Assembly: GCA_032622095.1 (NCBI GenBank)
Contig: CP136063.1
Coordinates: 145,035,950 to 145,099,949, forward strand
Reading direction: 5' to 3'
Origin: Siphonodentalium dalli
Taxonomy: Eukaryota; Mollusca; Scaphopoda; Gadilida; Siphonodentaliidae
Length of the DNA: 64,000 nt
Position numbers and translations under genes: made by a program. This document shows positions 6,301 to 50,280 of the stretch, piece by piece (the first letter of the stretch is position 1; each line of letters opens with the position of its first letter). The notes under the pieces are model-generated. The model searched no databases. It worked only from the letters and a program-made list of their open reading frames with translations, and was not told the DNA's origin.

Positions 6301-8511
6301 ATATGAATTTAGCCTGTTTTTATACGCCCTTTTGAAAAAAAGGCCGTATTATAGTATTGGTCCGTCCGTCCGGGCGTCCGTCCGTTAACCTGTTGTCCGG
6401 ATGATAACTTTAGTTAGAGTGAACCAAAATTAGTAAAATTTGGTATGTGGGTTTATTAGCCGAAAAGTAAGTTCAAGTTCAAATTTGGGTTCCGCCCGCC
6501 AATTTTCACCGGAGTTATGCCCCTTATTTAACGTTTTTTTTTAACGTCCTTGAAATTTGTTGTCCGGATGATAACTTTAGTATAGTTTATCGGAATGAAT
6601 CCAAATTTCTTTCTTTCACCAAAACACAGGTCAAGTTCGAATTTGGGTTCTGTCCGACCATTTTTGGCAGAGTTATGCCCCTTTTTCGACTCAGAAAATT
6701 CAGTTTTTCTTATGTTTTTTGGTTTCCGGATGATAACTCGATTTTGGAATGTTTATACGCAAAACCCGTTTTTTTGTGGATTACATATATCAAAATACAG
6801 CTCAAGTCCGAATTTCGTTTTAATCCGATAATTTTTGCGAGAGTTATGGCCCCTTTTTTGACGTAATTTGACTTAGAAAATCCCTGAAATTTGTCCGGAT
6901 GATAACTTGAGTTAGAGTGAACCGATTTCAATCAAATTTGGTATGTGGGTTTATTAGGAGAAAAGACAGCTCAAGTTCGAATTTGGGTTCCGTCCGCCAA
7001 TTTTCACCGGAGTTATGCCCCTTATTTGACGTAATATGACTTAGAAAATCCCTGAAATTTGTTGTCCGGATGATAACTTTACTAGAGCTTATCGGATTCA
7101 ATGATAATTTGGTATATTACTTTCTCCCACCAAAACACAGGTCAAGTTCAAATTTGAGTTCCGTCCGCCAATTTTTACCAGAGTTATGCCCCTTTTTTAC
7201 CAGTTTCCGCCGACCCAAGAGAGGGCGTATATTGCACGCCCAGCGTAGCTCTTGTTGTAGTTGCTGTATTGTTTATTTGATTGCAAACAAAGATATTTTT
7301 AATAGTGGCCTGGATGTGATTGTATCATTGTTGCATAATATTGCGTACTTCTATTTGTAGGATGATGTCTATACTCATCTTTACACTCTTATTGTAAAAC
7401 CTGACAACACTTATGAAGTGAAAATCGACAACGAAAAGGTGGAAAGCGGTGATCTCGAGGCAGACTGGGACTTTCTTGCTCCAAAGAAAATAAAGGTACT
7501 AATATAACCTTTCTTTTGGTAAATGGATTCTCCCTTCAGTTATAAAGTATTCATTGAAATAATGTAAATTGCTTTTAATTTGTTGGTGTCAGGTTACGTG
7601 GTTCAGCCATTTATGAATGACTTTTGTGGGTTGTAAATCCATGGGTCCGCCGGTACTAATTGTCGCCTCCGAATAATAACAATAAATTCCAACTAATAAA
7701 AGTGCAGCCACCTCGGCTGGTTATCTGAAATTGTGCATCCGCTATGCAAGCATAATGAACACGTCGCCTGTCTGAGCTTTTGTTGCCAACTATTGAAGAT
7801 GTTAACGACTGGATATTATTACATAAGCCAACATAAGCTACATGTAGATGACATGGTGAGCGAAGATTGTTCTGGAAAGTTTTCCCATATCAACCCTTAA
7901 GCCTATTCACACCAAATGTACAATAAATGGCCTAAACCTCATTGTTAGGCCAAAAAAATTAATAGGTTTTGGTTCTCGGCCCCGCCGCATTGAATAAAAA
8001 GGGCCACATTGGGCCTTTTTATTGCAATGCCTGATGTTATGACAAAAAAAATTACAAAAATAAATTAAAAAAAATAAAATTTATTTTATCAACATGTCCA
8101 TAGCAGATATGTGTTGAATATTAGTGTGCATTGAGCTCTAACATGTAATGTGTTAAAAAGTGTCCTGCAGGCTTACAACATGAAGTAGATGACTACAATT
8201 AAGAAAATGATTAGCTGATCCTCATGCTCTTCTTACAATTAGTCATTGTGAACAACTTACACTAATTGTAACTTTATACAATTGAAAGGCACAGGACTAA
8301 ATTCAGGATCACATATTAGAATGGGGAGGTATCAGTTTTTAGACAACAATAACAGTAGTTAATGTCAGGGGCATTATATATTGTTAGGTAATCCCAGTCC
8401 ATACACTGGTAGTACAATGTCATTTTTATGTTTACCCATACCATAGTATGGTAAACATAGTGTCGTTGTCCGGATTGACCACTCGTCGTTAGTCCGTCCG
8501 TCCGTCCGTCC

Positions 8512-8565
<54 letters not shown>

Positions 8566-11500
8566 AGACACTTTACGCATGGTGCGATAAATCGAACATT
8601 TTATATCTGATCGGAACCAAATTTTGTATATGAATTTCTCAGCATAAAAGACAGATCGAGTTCATATATGGGTTTGATCCGACTATTTTTAACTGAGTTA
8701 TGGCCCTTTTTCGAAAAAAATATTCACCTTAAAAAAATATTTAAATTTAGATTTCATTTCTCGCCCAATCTAACAAAACCAAAAAAAATAATTAATAAAT
8801 AACAAATAATGAATTTTTTTTTTTTTAAATAATTAACAATTTTTTTTTTTTTAAAGATAATAAAATTTTAAAAACTAACCCTAATATAACTCCGCCAAGG
8901 GTACACCAAGTCAGCATACCAAATTTGGTTTAAATCGATCCAATATATTGTCATGTACTGCTAAATTTTTTTTAGCCATATTCAACAATTCCATCCCATG
9001 CCTTTGGAGTACTTAGCTATTAATATGGCTATATTATTTTCTGATGTCTCTTTTGCCAATGTGCAGATAAAAGCTATGGTATCTAATTTTTTTTAAAGTT
9101 TCAACAATACACATCATTCAACAATACACATCACATGCTGTTTAATAAAGGGTTTTGTAGGTTAAGTTACCAAAATGGGCTTTAGAACATTGCTAAAATC
9201 ACTTAGCTAATCTTGAGATTCAAGTGTCTTCATGCAACTGGCATTCAGTTATTTGATAAATTTCAATTTAAAGAGAATTCCATAACTTCTGATTTTATAT
9301 GTATATCCTCTCTGGAATTTTCTAAACTAACTGCCAATTGTGAAAATTAATGAGACATGGGTCAGATTTTAGAACACTGTTGATTGCCTGTTGATAAATG
9401 AAACAAAGTGATCTGTTTTTAATCACTTCATGTCATCTGCCATGTAGCCAATGATTTGTTTGTTATCACAAGAGCCAGCCAGTTGGCCAATGCAAAGGCT
9501 TATTTTATATAGGCATCTGTTATCTGACCCAACACATCAGAACCTAACATGTAACTACCAGAGAAAGCTGCACAACTGAGATCTATAAGGATATTTTGCA
9601 GAGAACACTTGATCATTCTTGCTTGGATATTCTTGATCCTCTTGCTTGGATATTCTTGATTCTACATGTTAATACCTGTGTGCAGATTCTTGTCATGCTT
9701 GGATAATCTTGATCCTACATGTTCATCTGTGCAGATTCTTGTCTTGCTTGGATATTCTTGATCCTCTTGCTTGGATAATCTTGATTCTACATGTTAATAC
9801 CTGTGTGCAGATTCTTTTCTTGCTTGGATAATCTTGATTCTATCTGTCCATACCTGTGTACAGATTGTATTCTGCAGAATGTTTTTCTTTCTACTGATCA
9901 ATACTTAGGATGTATCTTGACAAGACTATTACTAGTAGTCAAGAGAAGTTCATCAACAACAAAATATGACTTACAATACTGAGGTATATAAAGTTATGAT
10001 GTTTTCCATGTTTCTGTGAAAGGATTGATATATTTCAACATCATTGTGAGTAAAACAAATTTTGCATAATTTTTCTCCCTAGCTGCCATCTTGGATTAGT
10101 ATTGACTATATTATTTAGTGTACTCGTCTCTGCTGCCATCAATTTTATAATTTAAAGAGACATGAATACACAAATTTATATTGTCGTAAGTTTATCATTT
10201 ATGAGAATGTTCACCATTGCGAGCAAGAAAATGTTTATAAATTATAATCCAGTAATATAACCATGAAATAGAGCATTTCATATTTTCATACCAGTAGTGT
10301 CTTTCATATTCCCTGGGACTATAAAGCCCAAATTCAGCATGAACAGATGCACCCCGCATTTGATTTCATTACTGATAAGTTTAAAAAATATTAACCAATT
10401 TCATCCATTACATGCCTTTTGAACTCTTCTGTTGCTTGATATGTCTTTCCAAAATGGGAAAGAATGATTATGCCCCAAATAAATTCCCAGTGTATGTAAT
10501 AGTCATGACATCAAAGACGGCAGATGACTGCCAATGTTTTTGACTGATTCACCCTAAAACATCTCTATGATAATATTTTGATAGATCACATGCCAATTTG
10601 TAACAAAGCAGATAAATATAACTGCCCACTGTTTATACATTCTCTTCAATAATTTTGAACTAAAGAATGAAATATTTTACTTTTCATTTCTTTAAGAAGT
10701 GACATTTGCAGTTTGTCTTGTGTTGCCAGTTTTCAAGGCATGCTACTAGTTCCTATTCTATAATTTGAGTATCTATAGTCCTTAACTTGTTATTTTCTCA
10801 AAACCACTCAATTTCCAATGCTTATTTTCTAGCCAGAATATCAAAGTATATTATATGTATCTTATGTTGACATAAAATAACTTGGTTGTCGATAACGGTA
10901 TATTCATTCGGAGATGTTCTTCCACTGACTATCTCATTAAAAAAATAATGGATCCGATTGTCACCAAACATATTAATGGATCTTCTGAGTAACCACTAGA
11001 TGAGAGCCATAAATTTTTAAATCATTGAATAACATCAACCTTTGATTTCACTCTTTATATGACTAAATCTTTTGGCATACCCTACAGATGACATCCCTAC
11101 TTTGATCATCACTAAACTTTATATGGATCTTCGGCATGACCACTAAATCGGAGGCATACATTTTTTCCAAATTTTGTTAAAAAACATGGCCACCTCCAGC
11201 CATCTTGGATTTTAATCTTTGCATGAATAAATTCTTTGGCACTCCCAAGATAACATCCCTCATCCGATCATCACCAAACTATGCAAGGATCATCGCGGGT
11301 GATCCACTAGCCATAAAATATATCCAATATCATGCAGCCATCTTAATTTAGTTATATCTCTTCATGTTGACATCTACAGTATTATTACTTATATATTTCA
11401 ACTGTCCGCATTCCTAATTGCTCCATTGACTGTAACACATGAAATTACCCCCTCCCCCTTCGATTGAGCCACAGTGTCATTGACACATTCATCTGATTTG

Positions 11501-14500
11501 AAATTTCGACAATCTAAATGTATGGTCTTTCCAGAATTAAGATTTCTATGATGCCACGAAGGAAGAAAAAAACTGCTCAGATGAAAGCATTGGAGGAGAA
11601 AATAAGAAGAAAATCACAGAAGGGGCCCATATCAGCCTCTCCCAAAGATATGAGCCTTTCATTACTAGTACCATCCATGGTTAAAATGGAGCATTCTTCA
11701 GGACCATCCATGGTTAAAATGGAGCATGACACAAATTCACGACCAGCCATGGTTAAAATGGCGCATGACACAAATTCACGACCAGCCATGGTTAAAATGG
11801 CGCATGACACAAATTCACGACCAGCCATGGTTAAAATGGCGCATGACCCCAAGTCACGACCAGCCATGGTTAAAATGGCACATGACACAAATTCTCAACC
11901 AACAATAGTTCAACTTACATCTAACCTTCCACTACCAGGCACAGTTCAAATAATGAAAAAACCAACATCAGAAGCAGCTATGGTTCAACATCAAAGAAAT
12001 TCAACTTCATTAACAACCCATCCTGCTAATGATAACTTTCAACTTCTGTCTATTTCATCACACCCACAATGTTTTTGGTTCGAAAATGACAGTGATAGCC
12101 AGTCAGAAAGATTATCGAATGAACTTATCCGACAACTTGAATGGCAGAGAAAAAAAAGTAGAAGTAGAAGTACAACACGGAATGAAAAAAAACGGGATTA
12201 TATTAGAACCCGCAGGACTGACTCAAAGTTTCGGAAAGCTGAGCAAATTTCAGATAGTAAATCAAGAAAACAAAAACGAATTGATCCTGAAGTTAGGAAA
12301 GCTGAGCAAATTTCAGATAATAAATCAAGAAAACAAAAACGATCTGATTCTGAAGTTAGGAAAGCTGAGCAAATTTCTGATAATAAATCAAGAAAACAAA
12401 AACGTACTGATTCTGAAGTTAGGAAAGCTGAGCAAATTTCAGATAATAAATCAAGAAAACAAAAACGTACTGATTCTGAAGTTAGGAAAGCTGAGCAAAT
12501 TTCTGATAATAAATCAAGAAAACAAAAACGTACTGATCCTGAAGTTAGGAAAGTTGAGCAAATTTCTGATAATAAATTAAGAAATCAAAAGCGATCTGAT
12601 CCAAAGTTTCGGAAAGCTGAGCAAATTTCTGATAATAAATCAAGAAAACAAAAACGTACTGATCCTGAAGTTAGGAAAGCTGAGCAAATTTCTGATAATA
12701 AATCAAGAAAACAAAAACGTACTGATTCTGAAGTTAGGAAAGCTGGGCAAATTTCAGATAATAAATCAAGAAAACAAAAACGTACTGATCCTGAAGTTAG
12801 GAAAGCTGAGCAAATTTCTGATAATAAATCAAGAAAACAAAAACGTACTGATCCTGAAGTTAGGAAAGCTGAGCAAATTTCTGATAATAAATTAAGAAAT
12901 CAAAAGCGATCTGATCCAAAGTTTAGGAAATCTGAGCGAATTGCAGATAGTATAGCAAGAACAATAAAAAGATCTGATCCTGAATATCGCAAATGTGAAC
13001 AAATTTCAGAAGTTTTTTCAAAGAAAAGAGAACGTGCTTCTCCAAAATTTCGGAATGCTGAGCGAAAATCGGAAAGCTTAACCAAAAAACGAAAGAGAAC
13101 AAATACTGAGTTTTCTGAATCAGAGAGAATGCTTGGAAGAGAGTCAAAACAGCGAAAGAGAACAAATACTGAGTTTTCTGAATCAGAGAGAATGCTTGGA
13201 AGAGAGTCAAAAAAGCGAAAGAGAACAAATACTGAGTTTTCTGAATCAGAGAGAATGCTTGGAAGAGAGTCAAAAAAGCGAAAGAGAACAGATCCTGAAT
13301 ATTGCCGTGTCGATTCTCAATCAACAGCGGATTATATGAGGAAGAAAAGGTCAAATGTTCACTTTAGGGAAATGGAAAGAATTAAGCAAAATGCTAAAAG
13401 GCACCAGCTAAATAAAGAGAATATACCTTCTGTTCCAAAACCCAGCACACAGGCACCAATCTCAAGATCAGTTGACACCCTTGTTAAACAATTCCACAAG
13501 CTTGTATCTCAGGGATGTACATATGTTTGCACTTCATGTGATCAACTTTGGTACAGACATAGTGTCGTCAAGGCATCAAATCTCCAGAAAAAGTGTAATG
13601 ACGCCATCGAGTTGTGTCTAACTGGCTACAAAAGTGAAGATAATGAGGAATGGGTATGCTTAACATGTCAGCGTTATCTCCTGAAAAATAGAGTCCCACC
13701 TTGCTCAGTAGCTAACAGTATGGTCTTTCCAGAAAAGCCAAAAGAACTTGATCTCAGACCACTGGAGTGGAGATTGGTCTCGCCAAGATTGATGTTCCTT
13801 AAGTTATATCAGACTCCAAGAGGCAAACAGTTTAAAATAGAGGGGAATGTGGTGAATATACCAACTGACATTGTCACAACAATGACTCAATTGCCTAGAC
13901 TAGAGAATAACATGGAGACTATGAAAATCAATTTGAAAAGAAGGCTTTGTTACAAGAATTCAACAATGTCTCAAAATGTTAGACCTGGAATGGTTCACAA
14001 AGCTGCAGAATGGTTGACAGAAAATGGAGCCCTGTATCGTGAGAAAGGTATAACTCACAATAGAAACATTGCTTTGTTGTTGAATGATGAGGAACCTCTC
14101 CTTCAAGAATGTGACTCCAGTCTAGATAATGTTCCTAAGGAAACTGAAAGTGAAATGGTTGATTTTGATGGACAAAGTGCTAATGAGTTCTACCTTATCC
14201 TTGATAAGGTTTATAAATATCATGCTGCTGATGATCTTGATAACTTTATGGATGGTCAGAATCTAAAGAGAAACTGTGTTGTTAAAGAAGGGTTTCTTTG
14301 TTTGAAAAATAAAGTATCTCCTCGTACAGTGAACAGTGAATTCTATGAGATGGAAGCAAGCTCTAGTGATTTACATGAAAAAGCCTTCCTGTGCGTGGTT
14401 CCTGGATGTGTATATTCATCCTTCAATTATTTTGATATCACTGATCATATGAAAACCAATCATAAAGAAAGTAAACACCAGGAAATGACGCAATCACAAG

Positions 14501-17500
14501 ATAGCTCTATTCCCACTTGTTACCTCTGCTTTGTTTGTTTCCATGAAACATTTTCTGATACAGAAATAGGTGACCACATGCGAATTGTACATGATCTCCC
14601 AACATTATCTGGTGTCGAAATTCAAACCAAACAACTGAAACAGGACACAACGATTAATGTGCACACTGTGCTTCTCCCTGAGAGGGTGGTTCTATTTGAT
14701 GTAGAGAAATTCAACTCAAAATTGGATGTAACCTGCAGATACTCAATTACTACTCCATCTCAACTGTTTCTGAAGAAGCAAACAAGAATTGATAACATTG
14801 ATAAGACTTCAACAGAAGATGATTGTTCTGATGTGAATAATGTGTTGATTACTGAAGAAGCTTGTGATAGCGACAATGAAGAACCAAAATCTGGTGTACT
14901 TGACACTCTGCTGACAGGCCCGGACTTCTTAGATGATGATGAGCGTAACAAAGCAACATCATTTGCCCCTGGTGAAGGGAGTAAACCAATCAGTGTCTTC
15001 AAAGATGAACATTGTGAAGAATTAGCATTTCCAGAAATATTTTTTGGTTCATCGAGAGAGAAAAACAAAAACAGACATGTACCTGTTCATTATAGTGAAA
15101 CTTGCAAATCTGAATTGAGACGACGAGACAGAAGAGCAGCCAGGTGTATAGATAATATCTTTTTCAAAGCAAAGAAATTACAAATGAAAGCTATAATTAG
15201 CAAAACAATGTTAGCAGTAAGGAAGCATAAGACCCGGGGTAAAAAGTTGACAGCAGGATACTTAAAGAAACCTGATGCCATTAAAAAGCTACTACATCTC
15301 GATGAAGGATATGCCTTCTTGAGAAGCTTGAGAGGATCTCCACCATACTTCGAGAAAGCAAAGAAAGATCTGTTTGCTATGCTGAGACAATTGGGGCCCG
15401 CCACTCTATTTTGTAGTTTTTCCTCGGCTGAAACAAAATGGTTACATTTACTAAGGATACTCGGGAAATTAGTTGATAAGAAAGAATATACGGATCAGGA
15501 ATTGGAGGATATGTCCTGGGATGAAAAATGTCGACTAATCTCCAGCGATCCTGTTACATGTGCTCGACATTTTGACTACCATGTACAGTGCTTGATAAAC
15601 AAATTTATTCTGACACCACTCAACCCAATTGGTGAGATATCAGACTGGTTTTATAGAGTTGAGTTCCAGGCTAGAGGAAGCCCACACATACACATGATGC
15701 TCTGGGTGAAAGATGCACCAGTATATGGCGAAAACACTGAAAGAGAAATAGTTGAATTTGTTGACAGATATATTTCATGTGAGAAACCTCAAGACATTGC
15801 ATTGGCTAACCTTGTTTCACGACAAGTTCACCGACATTCAAGAACATGTCATAAAAAGAAAACTGGAAAATGTCGCTTTAATTTTCCTCAGCCACCTTTG
15901 AGGAAGACCGTTATTTTAAAGCCACTGAATTCAGATGATGAGTCAAAGAAACACAAAGCAGAATGGACACGCATTAGGAATATCCTGAACAACATGAAGC
16001 TAGGAGAAGATATTTCTCATGAGGAATTTCTAGAGAAAATAGGAACCACTGAGGAACTATATACTATGGCTATAAGATCATCAATCACCTCAAGTACTTT
16101 ATTTCTAAAACGGACGCCCAATGAGATCCGTATAAACAACTACAACAAATTGTGCTTGTCTGCTTTTAGAGCTAATATGGATTGTCAGTTCATCTTAGAT
16201 ATGTATTCATGTGCCACATATGTTGTGTCTTATATATCTAAAGGAGAGAGAGGTATCAGTGACCTGTTGTACAAGGCATGCAAAGAAGTCCGAGAAGGGA
16301 ATAATACTATCCGAGAACAAGTCAGGAAAATAGGTAATAAATTCTTGAACAATGTTGAGATATCAGCACAAGAAGCAGTTTATATTGTACTTGGATTACC
16401 AATGAGGAAAGCTTCCAGAGAGGTTGTATTCATCAACACTGCTCCTCCCGATGAGAGAACTAAGTTACTGAAACCACTGAAAGAGATAAATGAGATGAGT
16501 GATGATTCAGAAGAGGTGGAGTCAAATAACATGTTAACAAGATATGCAAAAAGACCGAAAAAGTTGGAAAAAGTCACATTAGCTGATTGGGTGGCCATCT
16601 ATGATAAACGAAATTTCTGGAAGAAGCGAAATACAGCAGAAACTGATACTGATGGTTTTCCTGTCAATGATGACCCTGAAGAAAACTCGGATGATGAAAT
16701 GCCTCAAAATGAAAAACCAACTGATTCTGTGCACAGAAAAGTCATACGAAGTGTCTGGTTCAATAAAGACATGTATCCTGAGAAGCACTACAGAGAACTA
16801 CTAATGCTGTTCACCAACTGGAGATGTGAAGATACTGATCTATTACATAGATGTAATACATATGAAGACAGATATTTGCAACTGAAAGGGGATATAGATG
16901 AACAAATGAAACTCTATGCACCTTGTCAAGATGCCCTCGATGATGCTATGGTTGACTTACAAAACAGAGAGAACATGAATGACATCATTGTTGCTCCTAC
17001 CGCTCAACATCAAGATGACATAGATGAAGATGAAGGAATGATAGCTGTGACAGAAGACCCAAAAATAACATATGATTTAGCAGAAGATCTGGGTGTCGGA
17101 ATTAAAGTGCAAGTTGAAGATGATGACATTGAGTCAGTATTGACTGAAACTGAATTTAGAAGTCTCATGAGAAGGATGAACAGAGAACAACTTTCATTCT
17201 TCTACCATGTCCTTTATACAGTCAAAACATCTGATGAGCCATTCTATTATTTCCTAAGTGGTGGAGCCGGTGTTGGAAAAAGTTTTGTTGTGACACTGCT
17301 ATGTCATGCTATCAGAAACTATATGACCAGTGAAGAAGGTGGTGATTTCAATCTGAAAAAAGTTCTGCTTGTGGCTCCAACTGGTAAGGCTGCTCACAAT
17401 ATTAATGGTCGAACACTTCACAGTACTTTCGCTATACCTGTCAGTCAGTCGCTCAAATATAAACCCTTGGATAGTGATCGGTTGAATACACTCCGCAGTA

Positions 17501-20500
17501 AGTATGGATCTATCAAATTAATATTTTCTGATGAAATATCTATGGTCGGAAATAGGATGCTAAACTTCATCAACATGAGGCTGAGAGAAATAAAAGGAAA
17601 TAGCAAAGACTTTGGAGGAGTTAGTATTATAGCAGTCGGTGACATGTTCCAACTGAAACCTGTATTTGATCAATGGGTTTTCCGGCCACTTGATTTGGAC
17701 TACGGACCCCTTGCTACCAATCTTTGGTTTGAACATTTTAGTCTGTTCGAACTCACAGAAATCATGCGCCAAAGAGAGAATAAAACATTTGCAGAGTTGC
17801 TTAATAGATTGAGAGAAGGGAATCAGACTCAGGAAGACATACATGCTCTCAAACGAAGGACCATAAATGATAGACATCCAGATTATCCACACGATGCTGT
17901 CCATCTATTCACAACCAACAAGAATGTAAATGCATTCAATGAAGAGAAATATCGGTTAAGCAAGGAGATCAAATATGAAGTCCAGGCTGTTGATTCGGTT
18001 GTAGGTGTCACTGGGACCAACCTTGAGAAGAATATTATCGATAAAATATCAGATGATCCAAGGAAAACAATGCAACTCAGCAAAGTTCTGAAACTCGCTA
18101 TTGATGCAAGAGCAGAGATTTGTATTAACACCGATGTGGAAGATGGGTTATCAAATGGATCATCAGGGATTGTTAAACATGTGCAGCTAACTGACAAGAA
18201 AGGAATTGTTTGGATCGCATTTGACAGTAAAGATATAGGTAAAAAAACAAGAAGAAAATACCAACATCTATTTGACAACACCGTGGAGTCAACCTGGACA
18301 CCTATCTTTCCAGATTCTAGACAGTTCAGAGTTGGGCGCAGTGCACAACACCAAGTCATTCGTAAGCAGTTTCCACTGAGATTAGCTGCATCTAAAACTG
18401 TACATAGATCTCAAGGAGACACTGTGAATAGTATTGTCGATCTGAGTGGACGTAAAATGGAGCATATTCATTATGTGGCTCTCAGTAGGGTAAAATCTTT
18501 GCAAGGACTCCATATTCTAAATCTGAATCACACAAAGATAGCAGTTTCAGATGAAGTCAAGATAGAAATGAAACGACTGCGAACTACAAACAACATTTCG
18601 ATAAGCAGAGTGGTACAAACTCAAAATTCTTGCAGGATAGTCTATCTGAATGCCAGATCATTGCACAAGTACCTGGAAGATGTAAAGGCTGATCCAAGAT
18701 TTACATCAGCTGATATCTGTGTTTTCTCAGAAACAAGATTTGAGAAGAATGATCCCGAACTTGCTGTCAATATACCGCCATATTCTCTGCATCGCATGGA
18801 CAGCAAAATGAAAAGAAATCATGGATCTGCAATTTATTCTAGATTAGCATATGAAGATGGTTACCCAAGGAATGTGCTTCACTCTGATATCGCAGAGGTG
18901 TTGGGAATTAAAATAAAAAAACTGAAAAACACTATAATTTTGTTTGTGTATAAGGCACCTTCTTGTTCTGATCAGGAACTTTTCTCCACTCTGAGCAAAT
19001 ATTTAACTGAGAATTGTCAAAATCATAATATCATTATCATGGGAGATTTCAACTATCAATTGACTGGCATTGAGTCCGCTGCAAACAATGTTAGCAAGAA
19101 GATGTCTAAAGAGCACAGCCTGAAACAGCTAATTTCGACTTACACAACAGACTACAGAACTACCATTGACCATATCTATACAAATATTCAGAATGACATA
19201 TTTGACTTTGGGACATATGAAACCTATTTCAGTGACCACAAGGCAGTTTGGATATCTGTGACAACTGATAGAATTACGACATCATGATGTGACAAAACAC
19301 AACATCTGTTGACTGGGCCAGGTATATTTATAATCTAATCTAAAACTGGAAGTGTATTATCTTCAGAGTAATCTTATTTAATATAAACTATTACCAATGT
19401 TTCAAACTTTTTTGCTGACTAGCTGTACATAAATGAAATATTACAATGCCCGTTTGTCCAAACATCAATGAATACCATTCAAATGGTTACTGTATGATTC
19501 ATTAATATATTTCATTTAATTGTTAGAGAGGCATGACAACTACAAATATACCCATATATGGAGGAAAATTGTTTTAAGTTTTCTCTTTGAATGAGAATTG
19601 TAGTCCAAATTAGCTGATCCATCTGGATTCAGACTTGTGACCATACCGACATTAGGCTTAGGCAAGTTTGAAGTAACAATAGAGGTTACATGGGTCTTTC
19701 TGTTCTCTTAATTATATGACTTTAATAGTGTGTGATCTTTTTCTGGTCATACTGGTACACTACAGTATTCCCTGTCTGTGCTAAAATCAATCATATTATG
19801 CAACCTAAGAATGATATTAACGCCATGATCTGAAGCGGGGATGTTATTTAGATGTAAAATACTTTTACTATTGTGTCATTGATAGTATTTTGATAAAGTT
19901 TTTCGTGTTTCTTTGAATCTATTTCATCTTGTCAAGAGAGATATTCTTCTGATCCATATTTGAAAAATAATTTGTATATAGCCAATTTCCACCACAGATT
20001 TCTCAACAATCATCATGATATGGTATTTTATTTCATCAACCCAGTTATATATACACTGGTAGTCATTCTGTCATGTACATGTAAGATGTAGCTGTAGAAA
20101 GAAAGCCTGAGGTGAGTACAAATATCATAAAATTTTATAATTCTTTTGACAATTTTTTATGATTCTTGGTGAGAATCATATGTGTATATATATAAATATG
20201 TTCACATTACTAATGTAAGAATCATGTTCTTGTCGCCATCATTCGCTATCGCCAAGGTATGGGTTAAACATCTGCCGATCGTGATCGGCCTCTCGTTATA
20301 TAAGACTAAATGAGTTTATATGCATAACAGTTCCCTCTACCTTTCTGGTTATTACTAGACAGAGGAAGGTGTCTTTGTCCATGCTTACTATGCGCAATAA
20401 AAAATAAAAATAAAACCCTCCCTCCATCATTGATTTGAAGAAAAAAATTGCCAGAGAACCAAAACACTTTTTTTTGGCCTTACCACAGTAGACTTAATTG

Positions 20501-23500
20501 TGTCACTGTCTAGTTTCACAAAAGCTGGTCTGTGATATGTGACTGTTACTTTGGACACGTTGTGAACCTACATATATCTTTGTGCTAGTTAATAGTAATG
20601 AATCAAAGAAGTTTAATTGTTATTTATTTTTATGCAGAAAGATTGATTACGCATTGTAATTGTAATTAGACCATAGCTACTCTTTCATTAATATACTTCC
20701 AAATCGATAGAGGCTTTGAATGTACACTTCTCTTATGAAATTTCTTCTTTTTTTTAAATGGCGACTTATTTTGTGGGGTTTTTAATTTCACGAAAATTGG
20801 ACCACCATGTACGATTTAAATTACATTAATCTGTCAGTTTGCGTTAATGCCTCAATACTGATGTTCTTAAATCAGTTTGTGAATTATAATTATGGTAACA
20901 ATATATGTCATTGAAACTCAGTCAAGGATTGGGTGAAACCTGGTACAAGGATGTGAAAGAAATTAAAAAAAACGGATCAGTGTCTTGTGAATGGCATATG
21001 GTCGGTCAGAACAAGTTTTTAGTCCTGAATACTGAGTAGTTGATACCATATAAATTTGTTTATTTAATTTTAAGGATCCTGAAGCTACAAAACCTGAAGA
21101 CTGGGATGAGAGAGAGACAATTGATGATCCTGAAGACACTAAACCAGAAGAATGGGAAAAACCCGAACACATTGCTGACCCTGATGCCAAAAAGCCTGAA
21201 GATTGGGATGATGAGATGGACGGTGAATGGGAACCACCAATGATTGATAACCCTGAATTCAAGGTAATTAATTTAATCAATCTAAAATTTCTTCAACATC
21301 CTTGAGATTTATGTGTTCTATTTTACATAATGATTATTCTTACTGACTCCTGAGTAGGCTCCTTCAAACATAAGAGGATCTGAATCATGCTTAAGGGTCG
21401 ATTTGATTCGAATTGACCATGAAGAATCTTAAGGGTCGATTTGATTCGAATTGACCATGAAGATTCAATTAATTTGTGCACTCTCTTACAATGGGAGACT
21501 CCTTTGACGTTTTCTGCTGTATAAACAAAACATTGCCATCAACAACTTAGCAGAAGGGGTTTAACCATATGCACGATGTATTATGGTAAATATTTGGGTC
21601 CGTGCAAAATGACAAATAGATAGTTGTTCTGCCTACTGTTATTTTATCCCGCTCCCAAAATATTTTGGGCGGGGTAAATAGAAATGGGTTCCCTCTCGAA
21701 AAGTTGTCCGGGGGCAATTTGAACAACTTTCAACTGTTTCCAAATATTTTTGGTGTATGAGTTAACAAGGGGTATATCTGAAACAAGTTTGCAAACTAGT
21801 CCTGGCCGGATATTTTCACCAGATTTATGGCCCTGTAATTGCCATTTAGCGCCTACGAAAAGTTGTCCGGGGTTTATTTTGAACAATTATCAACGGATGT
21901 GAAAATTTTTTGGTATACATACGAGTTCACAAGAGGAGCACCGGATATAAGTTTTTTTTTTTATTGTAATTTTTGGAATTGAAATTTAAATTTTAAGCCC
22001 AAACTAAAACAAGATATTAACCAATCTCAAACAAATATTAACCGATTTCAATTATTTTCAAGCATATTTTGAAAATGCCCATGCCCAACTTTGCCCACCA
22101 AGGTGGTGTGATACGGCCATCGTCAACTGCTTGTTAAATTTATTTAGTTGATGCACCATCTTTATATTGTTCTGTTCCTGTATTTATCACTACTCAGATC
22201 ATGAGGTAAATAGATTAGTTTCTGGATATCCATTTGGTGACGAAACAGTGCTAATTCCAGTAAATTCTGGCAAATGTTTGATTTTGACCAAATTTGGTTT
22301 GTGGCTAACCTTACCGGTACTTGTATTTAAGTTCGTGAAGTACTATTTTTCGATCAGATTTAAATTCGCGCATGTTGAATTTGTGCAATGTTGCTCAAAT
22401 TCAAAACTTACAAATTTTTCAAACGGTAAGGACTGACTATGTAACTTAAAGGGGTACTGTACGCCAAATGTTGTTGTTGGTTTCTATAGTCTCGGAGTCA
22501 GAGAATAAGGTAACAATTTTTTCACTATTTGAAAGTCTGTTGAGTACGAAGTAGTGTTACGGATGACAAATTTACCGGAATGCAAAAATACAAATTGTCG
22601 TTGTCGAGTAATTTTTGTACAGTTTTCAACCAAATGAATCAAATAAAAGTTATATTATAGGCATACTAGTCCAATATAATCATTTAAGTTATTGTATCGT
22701 CGCTAGTCAGTGAGTGACTTGGAGTGTTCTCCCCGTATCATTATAATATTTTAAGCAATCGTGTGTGCGATCGGTTTAACATCCAGTATCCCTCAATTAC
22801 TTTATTTTGATTACGGAAATTCGTAATTTAATTGACGCCATTTTATGGCTCCAGTCATAAATTCAATTTATATCAAATTATTAACTTTTAAATTATTAAA
22901 TTTTAAGATAGCATATTAACCTGAGCGTTTACAGAATACATCTTCGACTCAAATTACTTATGTTTCTATATATTATCGATATTAGATCGTTGTTGTCACC
23001 GGAAATTTAATGCAAATGGCGTACAGTACCCCTTTAAGACTGTTTGACTATGGTGTCCTGGACTACTGGATTGTCAATATCAAGACGTTATTTCGTACAC
23101 CTTCAGTCTGGAATGTTATTTTTTACAAGCATTTCATCACGAAAATGTTACCATGGCTTATGCGAATAATGATGTTGAGATTGGTTGCCTAAATGTATAT
23201 AATTGTCTATTCCGTTAACTATCTGTATGTTACGTACCGGTATGTAACTCATTAACGTAGCACTGTTATTTTTTTATTTGGTTCGACATGAACTCAGTAG
23301 TCATACTATTTTTTGCTCGGTTTTTAAAATAGTATTGCTCGAATTTAAATACAAGTAAGGATACCACAAATCCATGTTATGCCTCATATTCATGTGCCAT
23401 ATTTTAAAATTACAGGGAGAGTGGAAACCAAAGCAGATTCCTAACCCTGAGTACAAAGGCTTGTGGGTGCATCCAGAGATTGATAACCCAGAGTATGAAG

Positions 23501-47010: not shown

Positions 47011-47397
47011 ATGGTAAACGCTGTTGACGACTCATCAGAAGATTACGAAGAACCACCACAAGCGTCAAATTATGCATTTCATTTTGACGAATCCTTATAC
47101 AAACTTGACTGTATGACCACCGTCATCTTGGGCGGTGTTCAGATCGACATGTTGATTGATTCCGGTGCGAGAACGAACGTCATAGACGAGCGCACGTGGA
47201 AAAATTTGAAAGATCAGAAAATCAGATGTGACTCAACATCAACTGACACTAACTCAAGAAAACTTTATGCATATGCTTCAAAAACACCTATTCCTGTTAA
47301 AGGTAAATTCAACTGCACCGTCAAAAGTGGCGAAAACCAAACAACTGGCTATTTTCCTCGTAATCGTTGGAAACGGTGTTCCATTGTTGGGAAATGA
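47011..47397 (+). pseudogene. retrotransposon protease region
   Basis: Reads TVILGGVQIDMLIDSGARTN; the DSGA motif is the aspartic protease active site, at about 47157-47168. The frame ends at 47397, and the RT continues in the next frame from about 47350. Confidence 0.85.
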
Positions 47398-48540
47398 ATT
47401 AGACTTACTCCGAGTTGGTCCTGATGTTGCAGAAATTAAAGAGACACAAAGTGACATTTACGACCAGTTGTGTTCAGAATATCCTAAAATTTTCGACACA
47501 GTTGGTAAACTGAAAGGAACTCTAGTGCATCTTCACAGTGATGAATCGGTGACACCGGTCGCTCAACAGCTAAGAAGAACTCCGTTTCATTTACGTGACC
47601 GTGTTGAAAATAAACTGAAACAACTCGAACAATTGGACATTATCGAAGCAGTCGAAGGTCCGACTCCGTGGGTAAATCCAGTCGTGATCGTACCTAAAGG
47701 TGAATCCGACGTCAGAATCTGTCTTGATATGAGGCAAGCTAACCAAGCGATTGTTCGTGAACGACACCCAATACCGACCGTCGATGAAGTGCTACAAAAT
47801 ATGAATGGAGCGACAATATTCAGCGAGCTGGACCTAGTTCTCGGTTACCACCAACTAGAGCTGGATGAAGAATCGAGAGATATAACAACCTTTGTAACGC
47901 ATGCAGGATTGCACCGTTACAAACGATTGCTCTTTGGAGTGAACTCCGCGCGAGCGAATTATTTCAATACAAAATCTCCAACGCGCTCAGTGGAATAAAT
48001 GGTGTGGAAAATATATCCGATAACATCGTAGTTCATGCTGCTGACAAAGCGATGCACGACGAAAGGCTTCGACAAGTGTTTCAACGATTGAAAAGCGTGG
48101 GCCTCACATTAAATCGTGCGAAATGTCAGTTCGGAATGAACAAAGTGAAATTCTTCGGATATCTGGTGTCTGAGAAAGGCATCGGTCCCACAGAGAAGCG
48201 TTTACAAGCGATGCTAAACACGCGACAACCGGAAAACATCAACGAGCTGAGAAGTTTTCTTGGTCTAGTCAACTACAGTGCGCGATTCATTCCAGAATTC
48301 GCGAGAATCAGTGAGCCGCTACGCAACCTAACGCCAAATGGTGTGCCGTTCGAATTCGGGGCTGATCATATGTGTGCGTTCAACAAGTTGAAAGAGTGTT
48401 TGAAAAAAGCGAACACACTAGCCCATTTCGACAAAAGTGCGCCGACTCAGATCATAGCAGATGGAAGTCCAACCGCGTTAGGCGCTAGCTGTGTTAGTAC
48501 AACAACAGAAAAGTGGTCCTGTTGTTGTCAGTTACGCTAG
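47350..48540 (+). pseudogene. retrotransposon reverse transcriptase, frameshifted
   Basis: RT motifs from PWVNPVVIVPKGESDVRICL to FSELDLVLGYHQ and RYKRLLFGVNSA lie in one frame. A shift near 47960 moves the rest (the catalytic-loop region and the thumb, FFGYLVSEKGIGP and LRSFLGLVNYSARFIPEF) to another frame. The conserved Asp pair of the catalytic loop reads ISDN, so the second Asp is Asn, a loss expected to abolish activity even without the shift. Confidence 0.9.
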
Positions 48541-49102
48541 TCTTGTTCTGTCATCAGTGGAACGTAGATATTCTCAAACCGAGCGCGAAGCGTTATCTCT
48601 GGTATATGCGTGTGAGAAATTCCACCCATATATCTACGGGAAGCCGTTCGAGCTCGTTACAGATCACAAAGCGCTCGAAGTAATATATGGTCCGAAATCG
48701 AAACCAAGTGCGCATATCGAGCGTTGGGTTCTCCGAATGCAGCCGTACGACTTCAAGGTGAAACACGTTCGATGTGTTGATAATATCGCAGATTCGCTGT
48801 CGAGACTAGTCACAGAACCTGCGAATGAAACCGTCGATAACGCTGATGAATATGTTCGATTCGTGACCGTAAATGCGACTCCGGCAACGTTCACGACGAA
48901 AGAAATCGAGAGAGAATCCGAATGTGATCCAGAACTCATCGAACTTAGGAATGCGAACACAACGGGCCGATTCGATAATTCGAAACCATATATGCCGATA
49001 GCCGGTGAGCTGTGCGTCATAGGACAGTTGGTGCTTCGTGGATCCCGTATCGTTATGCCAAAGAAACTCAGACCTTGGCTCTGGCGCATGAGGGACATTT
49101 AG
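48480..49102 (+). pseudogene. retrotransposon RNase H region
   Basis: SSVERRYSQTEREALSLVYA, FELVTDHKALEVIYG and VKHVRCVDNIADSLSRL are RNase H-type segments, in a frame different from the RT end (shift near 48485). It runs to a stop at 49102, after the frame has changed again for the integrase near 49070. Confidence 0.88.
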
Positions 49103-50280
49103 GAATCGTGGGCACCAAACAAGCACTACGCACAAAAGTATGGTGGCCTGGGATGGACAAAGCTGTAGAACGTTACTGTAAATGTTGCCATGGGTGCCAA
49201 ACTGTGGCGCGACCAGACCCGCCGGAACCGTTAAGGCCTACTCAACTACCACGTCAACCGTGGACTGAACTAGCTGTTGACTTGCTTGGACCTCTACATT
49301 CTGGACACAGTATACTAGTGGTTGTTGACTACTATAGTCGTTACTACGAGTATGACATCCTCACCACAACAACGGCGTCAACAGTAATTGACAGTCTAGA
49401 GGAAATATTTGCGAGACATGGACTACCGTTAGCTATCAAGTCGGACCATGGTCCACAATTCATTTCGTTGGAATTGAATGACTTTTGTACACGAAATGGT
49501 ATTAAACATTTACAGGTGACTGCGCGATACGCTGCCGCGAACGGAGAAGTCGAAAGACAAAATGCGTCACTCATGAAACGCATTCGAATAGCGCACGTCG
49601 AAGGGAGAAACTGGAAGATTGAACTAAGGACATATGTACAGAAGTACCGAAGTATACCGCATGCTGGGACAGGACGTTCACCAGCCGAGCTCTTGTTCAA
49701 CCGCAACGTGCGTAACAAAATTCCGACGCTAGAACTCGAAACGTATGATGGTGACAAACCGCAACCAGATTCATACGACGGTGACAAATCGCGACCGGAT
49801 TAAGAACTTTTCGACAAGGATTCAGAGTACAAAGGGCGAACCAAAATCTATGCTGACATGTCCAGGAACGCCAAGTATTCAGACATAGATCTAGGTGACC
49901 AGGTTCTCGTTCACCAAGAACCGACAAACAAACTATCGCCAAACTTCAACCCAGTTCCGAACCAGGTCATTTCCAAACAGGGTAACAGTTTCGTTGATCG
50001 AAATCCATCAGGTGTGACATATAGCCGAAACTCGAGAAACTTGAAAAGGTTTAACACTATGGGTGTATCCCCGTCAGACGATAACGACACTCCGGCGACT
50101 TCGCTCATGACTCCAACTGTGACTCTGCCCATTTCTGAGTCTATCACAGGAACGCCGAAAAATGACAATAGACCGCCAGATCATGCCGATACACCGCCAG
50201 ATCATGTCGATAGATGGCGAAGACATAATGTCAAACCGCCTGAGAGATTCCGGGACCTGGGAGATTCCGGGACTATGTAA
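49070..50280 (+). pseudogene. retrotransposon integrase, one in-frame stop
   Basis: The zinc-binding HHCC part (HEGHLG, CKCCHGCQ), the DDE core (AVDLLGPLHS, KSDHGPQFIS, NGEVERQNAS) and the C-terminal GDQVLVHQ/NKLSPNFNP module are all present. A TAA at 49801-49803 interrupts between core and C-terminal module, just after a short duplicated segment (SYDGDK twice). All three DDE residues are intact. Confidence 0.9.

Follow-up and report, generated by a model that had tools for sequence, protein, structure and literature searches.

The choice and the cutting of the target by Helentrons are poorly settled: Thomas et al. (2014; PMC4067079) described families with a variable number of T residues at the insertion site and proposed that the captured endonuclease is the agent of this choice. 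The Helentrons of Metaseiulus occidentalis and Drosophila (PMC4067079) carry a Rep domain, a PIF1 helicase and a C-terminal AP endonuclease in one frame with N-terminal zinc-finger-like motifs; they have palindromic subterminal inverted repeats (subTIRs) and a palindrome near the 3' end (8 nt from it in the element studied here), insert at T-rich sites without target duplication, and share their ends with many HINEs. In the oyster Crassostrea gigas the very numerous non-autonomous Helentrons named Cg_HINE (PMC7492417) also occupy T-rich sites without target duplication, and are found inside other repeats. Apart from the variable T count, these features are shared by the family described below.

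The window analysed was a 64-kb stretch of Siphonodentalium dalli DNA (GCA_032622095.1, contig CP136063.1; C3:145,035,950-145,099,949). Genome-wide searches covered the 2.23 Gb assembly of nine contigs, and copies are labelled by contig (C1, C4, C6, C9 etc.). Positions are those of the window, and all features lie on the forward strand (+), the two TTA duplications being without strand. We conclude, with a probability of about 0.95, that 8428-20297 (11,870 bp) is occupied by a complete Helentron of the autonomous type (an endonuclease-bearing Helitron-like element) which was inserted recently. Its host is a 13.6 kb calreticulin intron, in which it has the sense orientation: tblastn with human calreticulin detected one exon 5' of the insertion at about 7361-7495 (with PKKIK, 82% identity) and another 3' of it at about 21069-21263 (KPEDWD repeats, 78% identity). 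Elsewhere in the window, four adjacent frames at 47228-49803 (+) with reverse transcriptase, RNase H and integrase matches represent the pol remains of a Gypsy-like retrotransposon, split over frames.

The intron is mostly made up of the Helentron and of a second transposon into which it was inserted. The segments 7948-8427 and 20298-20479 constitute a single interrupted MITE with terminal inverted repeats (GGCCAAAA..) and a TTA duplication. Its left half, beginning with the terminal repeat GGCCAAAAA, is 85-95% identical to empty copies, and most of these alignments end exactly at 8427; its right half (...TTTTTTGGCC) is 92-97% identical to the 39 other copies listed, nearly all of which start at 20298. 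The TTA at 7945-7947, where homology to the empty MITEs begins (7945/7947), is identical to that at 20480-20482, and other copies have TTA or TAA after GGCC at the latter place. With the terminal repeats GGCCAAAAA/TTTTTGGCC and a 3-bp TWA duplication (TTA/TTA), the host element is by its sequence classified as a PIF/Harbinger-like MITE.

The uninterrupted MITE junction, AGTACAATGTCATTTTT followed by ATATAAGACTAAATGAG, was found in 1,361 genome copies (at most 2 mismatches). In these empty MITEs GTCATTTTT is joined directly to ATATAAG across the insertion point, with neither duplication nor loss of target; the Helentron thus entered between CATTTTT and ATATAAG without either. Since the empty copies read straight across, the boundaries 8428 and 20297 are fixed to the base, with the reservation that up to 2 T can be assigned to either end, because insertion adds a net two T's, in the MITE and in a second repeat alike. 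The TTTTT tract at 8423-8427 (CATTTTT) belongs to the target, with the insertion point at the 3' end of the tract or no more than 2 nt away: the T5 is present in the 1,361 empty sites, and its assignment to the Helentron was rejected since the empty MITE (CATTTTTATATAAG) and the empty second repeat (ACCATTTTTTCTTAC) both carry the T run. Three near-full-length copies, at C4:113.61-113.62 Mb, C1:177.41-177.43 Mb and C6:77.75-77.77 Mb, align over 8428-20297, each between unrelated flanks.

The ends themselves are structured. At 8428-8458 there is a palindromic subTIR or hairpin, ATGTTTACCCATACCATAGTATGGTAAACAT, with a DNA fold of -8.8 kcal/mol (z = -4.1) and about 6,800 genomic copies. Its inverse with one extra base, ATGGGTTAAACAT, is the 3' subTIR at 20259-20271, and it is followed at 20274-20289 by the terminal hairpin GCCGATCGTGATCGGC, placed by fold and motif positions, which stops 8 nt short of the element end; the last 8 nt are CTCTCGTT (20290-20297), and this end has about 9,900 genomic copies.

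The gene at 11518-19287 encodes a Rep-helicase-endonuclease of 2,589 aa without stops, its ATG standing immediately 3' of an in-frame stop; neither an RPA nor a second ORF was seen in the window Helentron. Pfam domains follow in the order DUF6570, Helitron_like_N, PIF1 and Exo_endo_phos. Cysteine-rich zinc-finger-like motifs and DUF6570 occupy 13528-14538 (aa 671-1007; Pfam DUF6570 at aa 723-847), the Helitron_like_N or Rep domain 15172-15702 (E 6e-24) with the HUH motif HIH at 15658-15696, and the two-tyrosine motif YVVSYISK 16219-16242. The PIF1 helicase (17176-18489, Pfam 2e-27) contains Walker A at 17260-17283, Walker B at 17530-17547, motif V at 18394-18417 and motif VI at 18475-18489; in the PDB search it matched PIF1 helicases and, more weakly, Helraiser (7lcc). 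The EEP (AP-like) endonuclease with SETR, GDFN, IDH and SDH motifs lies at 18649-19239 (Exo_endo_phos 2e-7, aa 2378-2574). By motif position, all the catalytic motifs named are kept.

Tandem repeats were detected by TRF both outside and inside the gene. A GTCC/GTCT microsatellite of 18.5 units (8492-8565) differs in length among aligned copies, and coding minisatellites lie in the N-terminal region at 11697-13298 (39-bp x5.3, 63-bp x11.9 and 63-bp x3.4). The two 63-bp arrays are at 12233-12984 and 13083-13298; other copies carry indels of -63 or -126 bp there, and since they vary by such whole units the frame is preserved despite the changing repeat number.

The assignment to the Helentrons is based on several traits found together: a Rep with HUH and two tyrosines united with PIF1 in one protein, an EEP fused at the helicase C-terminus, the diagnostic Helentron motif 2 described in PMC4067079 (in which (F/Y)xR precedes (V/I)ExQxRG and an S separates the G and P of GSPHxH), subTIRs at both ends, a short palindrome near the 3' end, T-rich insertion without target modification as seen in the empty sites, and HINEs with identical ends. 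Canonical Helitrons have no endonuclease, end in 5'-TC and 3'-CTRR, and insert between A and T; the present element has an EEP domain, the ends ATGTTT and CTCTCGTT, and a T-tract target.

Most of what the sequence-only reading had claimed could be verified. The Helentron at 8428-20297 is complete with both termini definable, as the empty MITEs and the C4, C1 and C6 copies with the same ends demonstrated; its 7.77-kb frame is open over 2,589 codons and keeps the HUH, YxxxY, PIF1 and EEP catalytic residues; the 5' terminus does recur inverted beside the 3' hairpin; exons on the same strand flank it on both sides, in agreement with a sense insertion in a calreticulin intron; and the T-rich flanks lack a target duplication. 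Recent mobility of the family was likewise borne out by the C4 copy, in which 11,812 aligned bases hold 9 substitutions relative to the window copy, besides a few indels, and the flanks are unrelated; the family therefore moved very recently.

The C6 and C1 copies differ from the window copy by about 0.7-0.8% overall, and their non-coding divergence (1.25%) is about four times the nonsynonymous one (0.30-0.37%). Together with pN/pS values of 0.4-0.6, which come from few changes, this hints weakly that the protein was under selection during the movement of the family. In the C1 copy 1.8 kb of other DNA is inserted at the place equivalent to window position 14924.

The helicase of the window copy is one residue short. 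At 18430-18436 it reads SIVDLSG, and the compared copies read SIVVDLSG: the Val between motifs V and VI is absent here and present in C4, C6, C1 and C9. A gap appears at the same place against the PDB PIF1 chains, and the spacing of this strand is kept by eight other Helentron-type frames as well as by PIF1 proteins; compared with the protein consensus of the family, the window copy thus carries one lesion. The C4, C6 and C1 copies each have frame-breaking changes (frameshifts or stops), and among the best-scoring copies listed the whole frame is open in the window copy alone. An open frame is, as judged from sequence, not a proof of an active protein, and the activity of the window copy is unproven because one conserved helicase residue is missing. 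The source copy of the family may be another one, given the broken frames in the three nearest copies. Whether the missing residue kills the protein, so that the window element is a young but dead copy and the mobility now comes from other copies, is a question to which we would answer yes with only slightly less than even odds. The codon is missing in the window copy only, within a stretch conserved with PIF1 helicases, and the other near-full copies have frameshifts or stops; against this, the frame is otherwise open with every named catalytic residue retained, the loss of one residue between motifs may be harmless, and intact copies may exist beyond the best-scoring ones listed.

The earlier view of intact Helentron frames as a rare finding did not hold in this genome. 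At nine of ten other Helentron-type loci sampled, helicase and/or EEP motifs (VALSR and/or GDFN) lie within one open frame (at least 400 aa within the stretch read), and such intact frames are not rare in S. dalli. Two more Helentron families, at C5:60205600 and C5:200450203, show 42-43% protein identity and open stretches of about 2,000-2,300 codons.

The ends of the element are very numerous, most of their copies being on short elements: the 5' end gave 6,822 genome matches and the 3' end 9,934 (at most 2 mismatches), many 5'/3' pairs lying 1-3 kb apart. Reversed-pattern controls of both termini gave 0 matches in 2.2 Gb, so that chance occurrence is excluded. The window element, which shares both ends, is the natural candidate for the coding partner of these HINEs, and they were presumably moved by its protein or by those of close relatives. 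Copies with constant ends and no target duplication have accumulated in a copy-and-paste-like manner. A 12.3-kb non-coding element with the family ends stands at C2:87565700-87578560, at the identical MITE nucleotide; as a second autonomous element it was rejected, having no frame of at least 120 aa and, beyond its ends, sharing just part of the 5' region with the window element.

The target was read from a sample taken on contig C1; of the 40 5' flanks in it, 38 were unique. At least five T stand at the end of 33 of the 38, and the number is exactly five in 26 of these 33, against 54% expected from the T runs of the window (p = 0.003); the T run is preceded by CA in 11 of the 26, with a background of 9.7% (p = 1e-5). 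The orientation of the element ends relative to the T run is fixed. Furthermore, single nucleotides of other repeats are used again and again. At the MITE nucleotide hit by the window element, 44 junctions with a 5' end and 38 with a 3' end were counted, 36 of which pair up around inserts of 1.0 to 12.3 kb, and in the second repeat 117 insertions share one position, between ACCATTTTT and TCTTAC. With the T-run density scaled from one window and related copies counted as separate events, the approximately 40 insertions at the MITE nucleotide are about 100-fold, and those in the second repeat about 13-fold, above chance relative to T5 positions. The second repeat is very abundant (about 30,000 copies of AACACTTTTTACCA..TCTTACATTC) and is a frequent landing site of HINEs. 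Empty sites without target modification were seen in both repeats.

These observations led us to a tentative proposal, to which we give appreciable weight but rather less than an even chance: the family protein recognises a short target (a non-T base, often CA, then five T, together with the surrounding sequence) and keeps a constant spacing between the 5' edge of the T run and the point at which the element is joined, and would thus be a near-site-specific rolling-circle transposon which reuses the same nucleotide of other transposons, its site being set by the captured EEP endonuclease. A T count mostly fixed at five and the repeated use of one MITE nucleotide were not found in the literature searched, whose coverage was incomplete, and the search for site-specific or poly-T Helentrons and for Helitron hot spots gave nothing relevant. 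A plainer explanation is that there is only an ordinary preference for T-rich DNA, as T-rich or TT sites are the published norm for Helentrons (PMC4067079, PMC7492417), and that the hot spots in the MITE and in the second repeat reflect chromatin or copy number. We consider this unlikely, while still a serious contender, since it accounts neither for the excess of exactly five T and of the preceding CA nor for the enrichment at the two hot spots over other T5 positions.

Another alternative does away with the hot spot: about 40 filled MITEs would all descend from a single MITE and HINE composite, spread by the MITE transposase. Several filled copies are indeed alike in sequence and about 1.35 kb long, e.g. 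C1:15.6 Mb and C6:1.2 Mb, and a few have the appearance of duplicates of a single composite. However, the inserts measure anything from 1.0 to 12.3 kb, and their 5' ends diverge by 1-37%. On the tree, filled MITEs are intermixed with empty ones, and different inserts are found in close relatives (C2:164.9, C5:41.5, C9:57.6); the second repeat is filled at one position in 117 copies as well. Spread of a single composite was therefore judged improbable. Since the filled MITEs are mixed on the tree and their inserts are so divergent, most of them appear to be independent insertions.

The sequence-only reading had named homology running past 20297 as evidence against these ends, and it had called for the alignment of genome copies, in which C4, C1 and C6 were found to begin at 8428 and end at 20297. 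Some short copies do run on beyond 20297, only because they were inserted at the identical site of the identical MITE. The junction of CTCTCGTT with ATATAAGAC, common to 38 copies, short and long, which extend into the identical 185 bp, might suggest a true 3' end near 20482, with these 185 bp of flank made part of the element by read-through capture. This reading has practically no chance of being right and is refuted by the empty MITE sites: 36 of the 38 have the other MITE half upstream of their 5' ends, both halves are joined exactly in the 1,361 empty MITEs, and the C4, C1 and C6 copies stop at 20297.

By analogy with known HUH endonucleases and Helitrons, the two-tyrosine Rep would nick the donor at the palindromic 5' end, the PIF1 helicase would displace a single strand until the 3' hairpin halts replication, and the displaced strand would be joined to the T5 tract. 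The EEP domain, following the suggestion of Thomas et al. (PMC4067079), would nick the T/A tract of the target, and the preference for T tracts probably stems from this domain.

It should be emphasized that the added value of this family is its target-site record and the link to the HINEs, rather than the open frame. It offers about 7,000 insertions, well over 1,000 repeat copies with the exact empty site, and a coding element whose ends match; from these the rule of target choice can be derived by statistics and afterwards put to a biochemical test.

Helraiser is a canonical Helitron, which has no EEP domain and no subTIRs and inserts between A and T. With this bat element (PDB 7lcc) the window Helentron shares the HUH/two-tyrosine Rep joined to a PIF1-type helicase and the hairpin near the 3' end. 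For Cg_HINE (PMC7492417) no autonomous partner was assignable, whereas the HINEs of S. dalli share both termini with an autonomous-type element, so that a coding partner can be suggested for these very abundant HINEs. All structural traits checked agree, at the level of sequence, with the Helentrons of Thomas et al. 2014 (PMC4067079), from which the present family differs in some respects: no counterpart of the RPA frame of the mite Helentrons was seen in the window element, the mite frame was published as a 'corrected' ORF and the window frame is open, and long coding minisatellites are found in the N-terminal region of the window element only. Additionally, the T count of the 5' flank, variable in the families described there, is mostly five in that of S. 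dalli.
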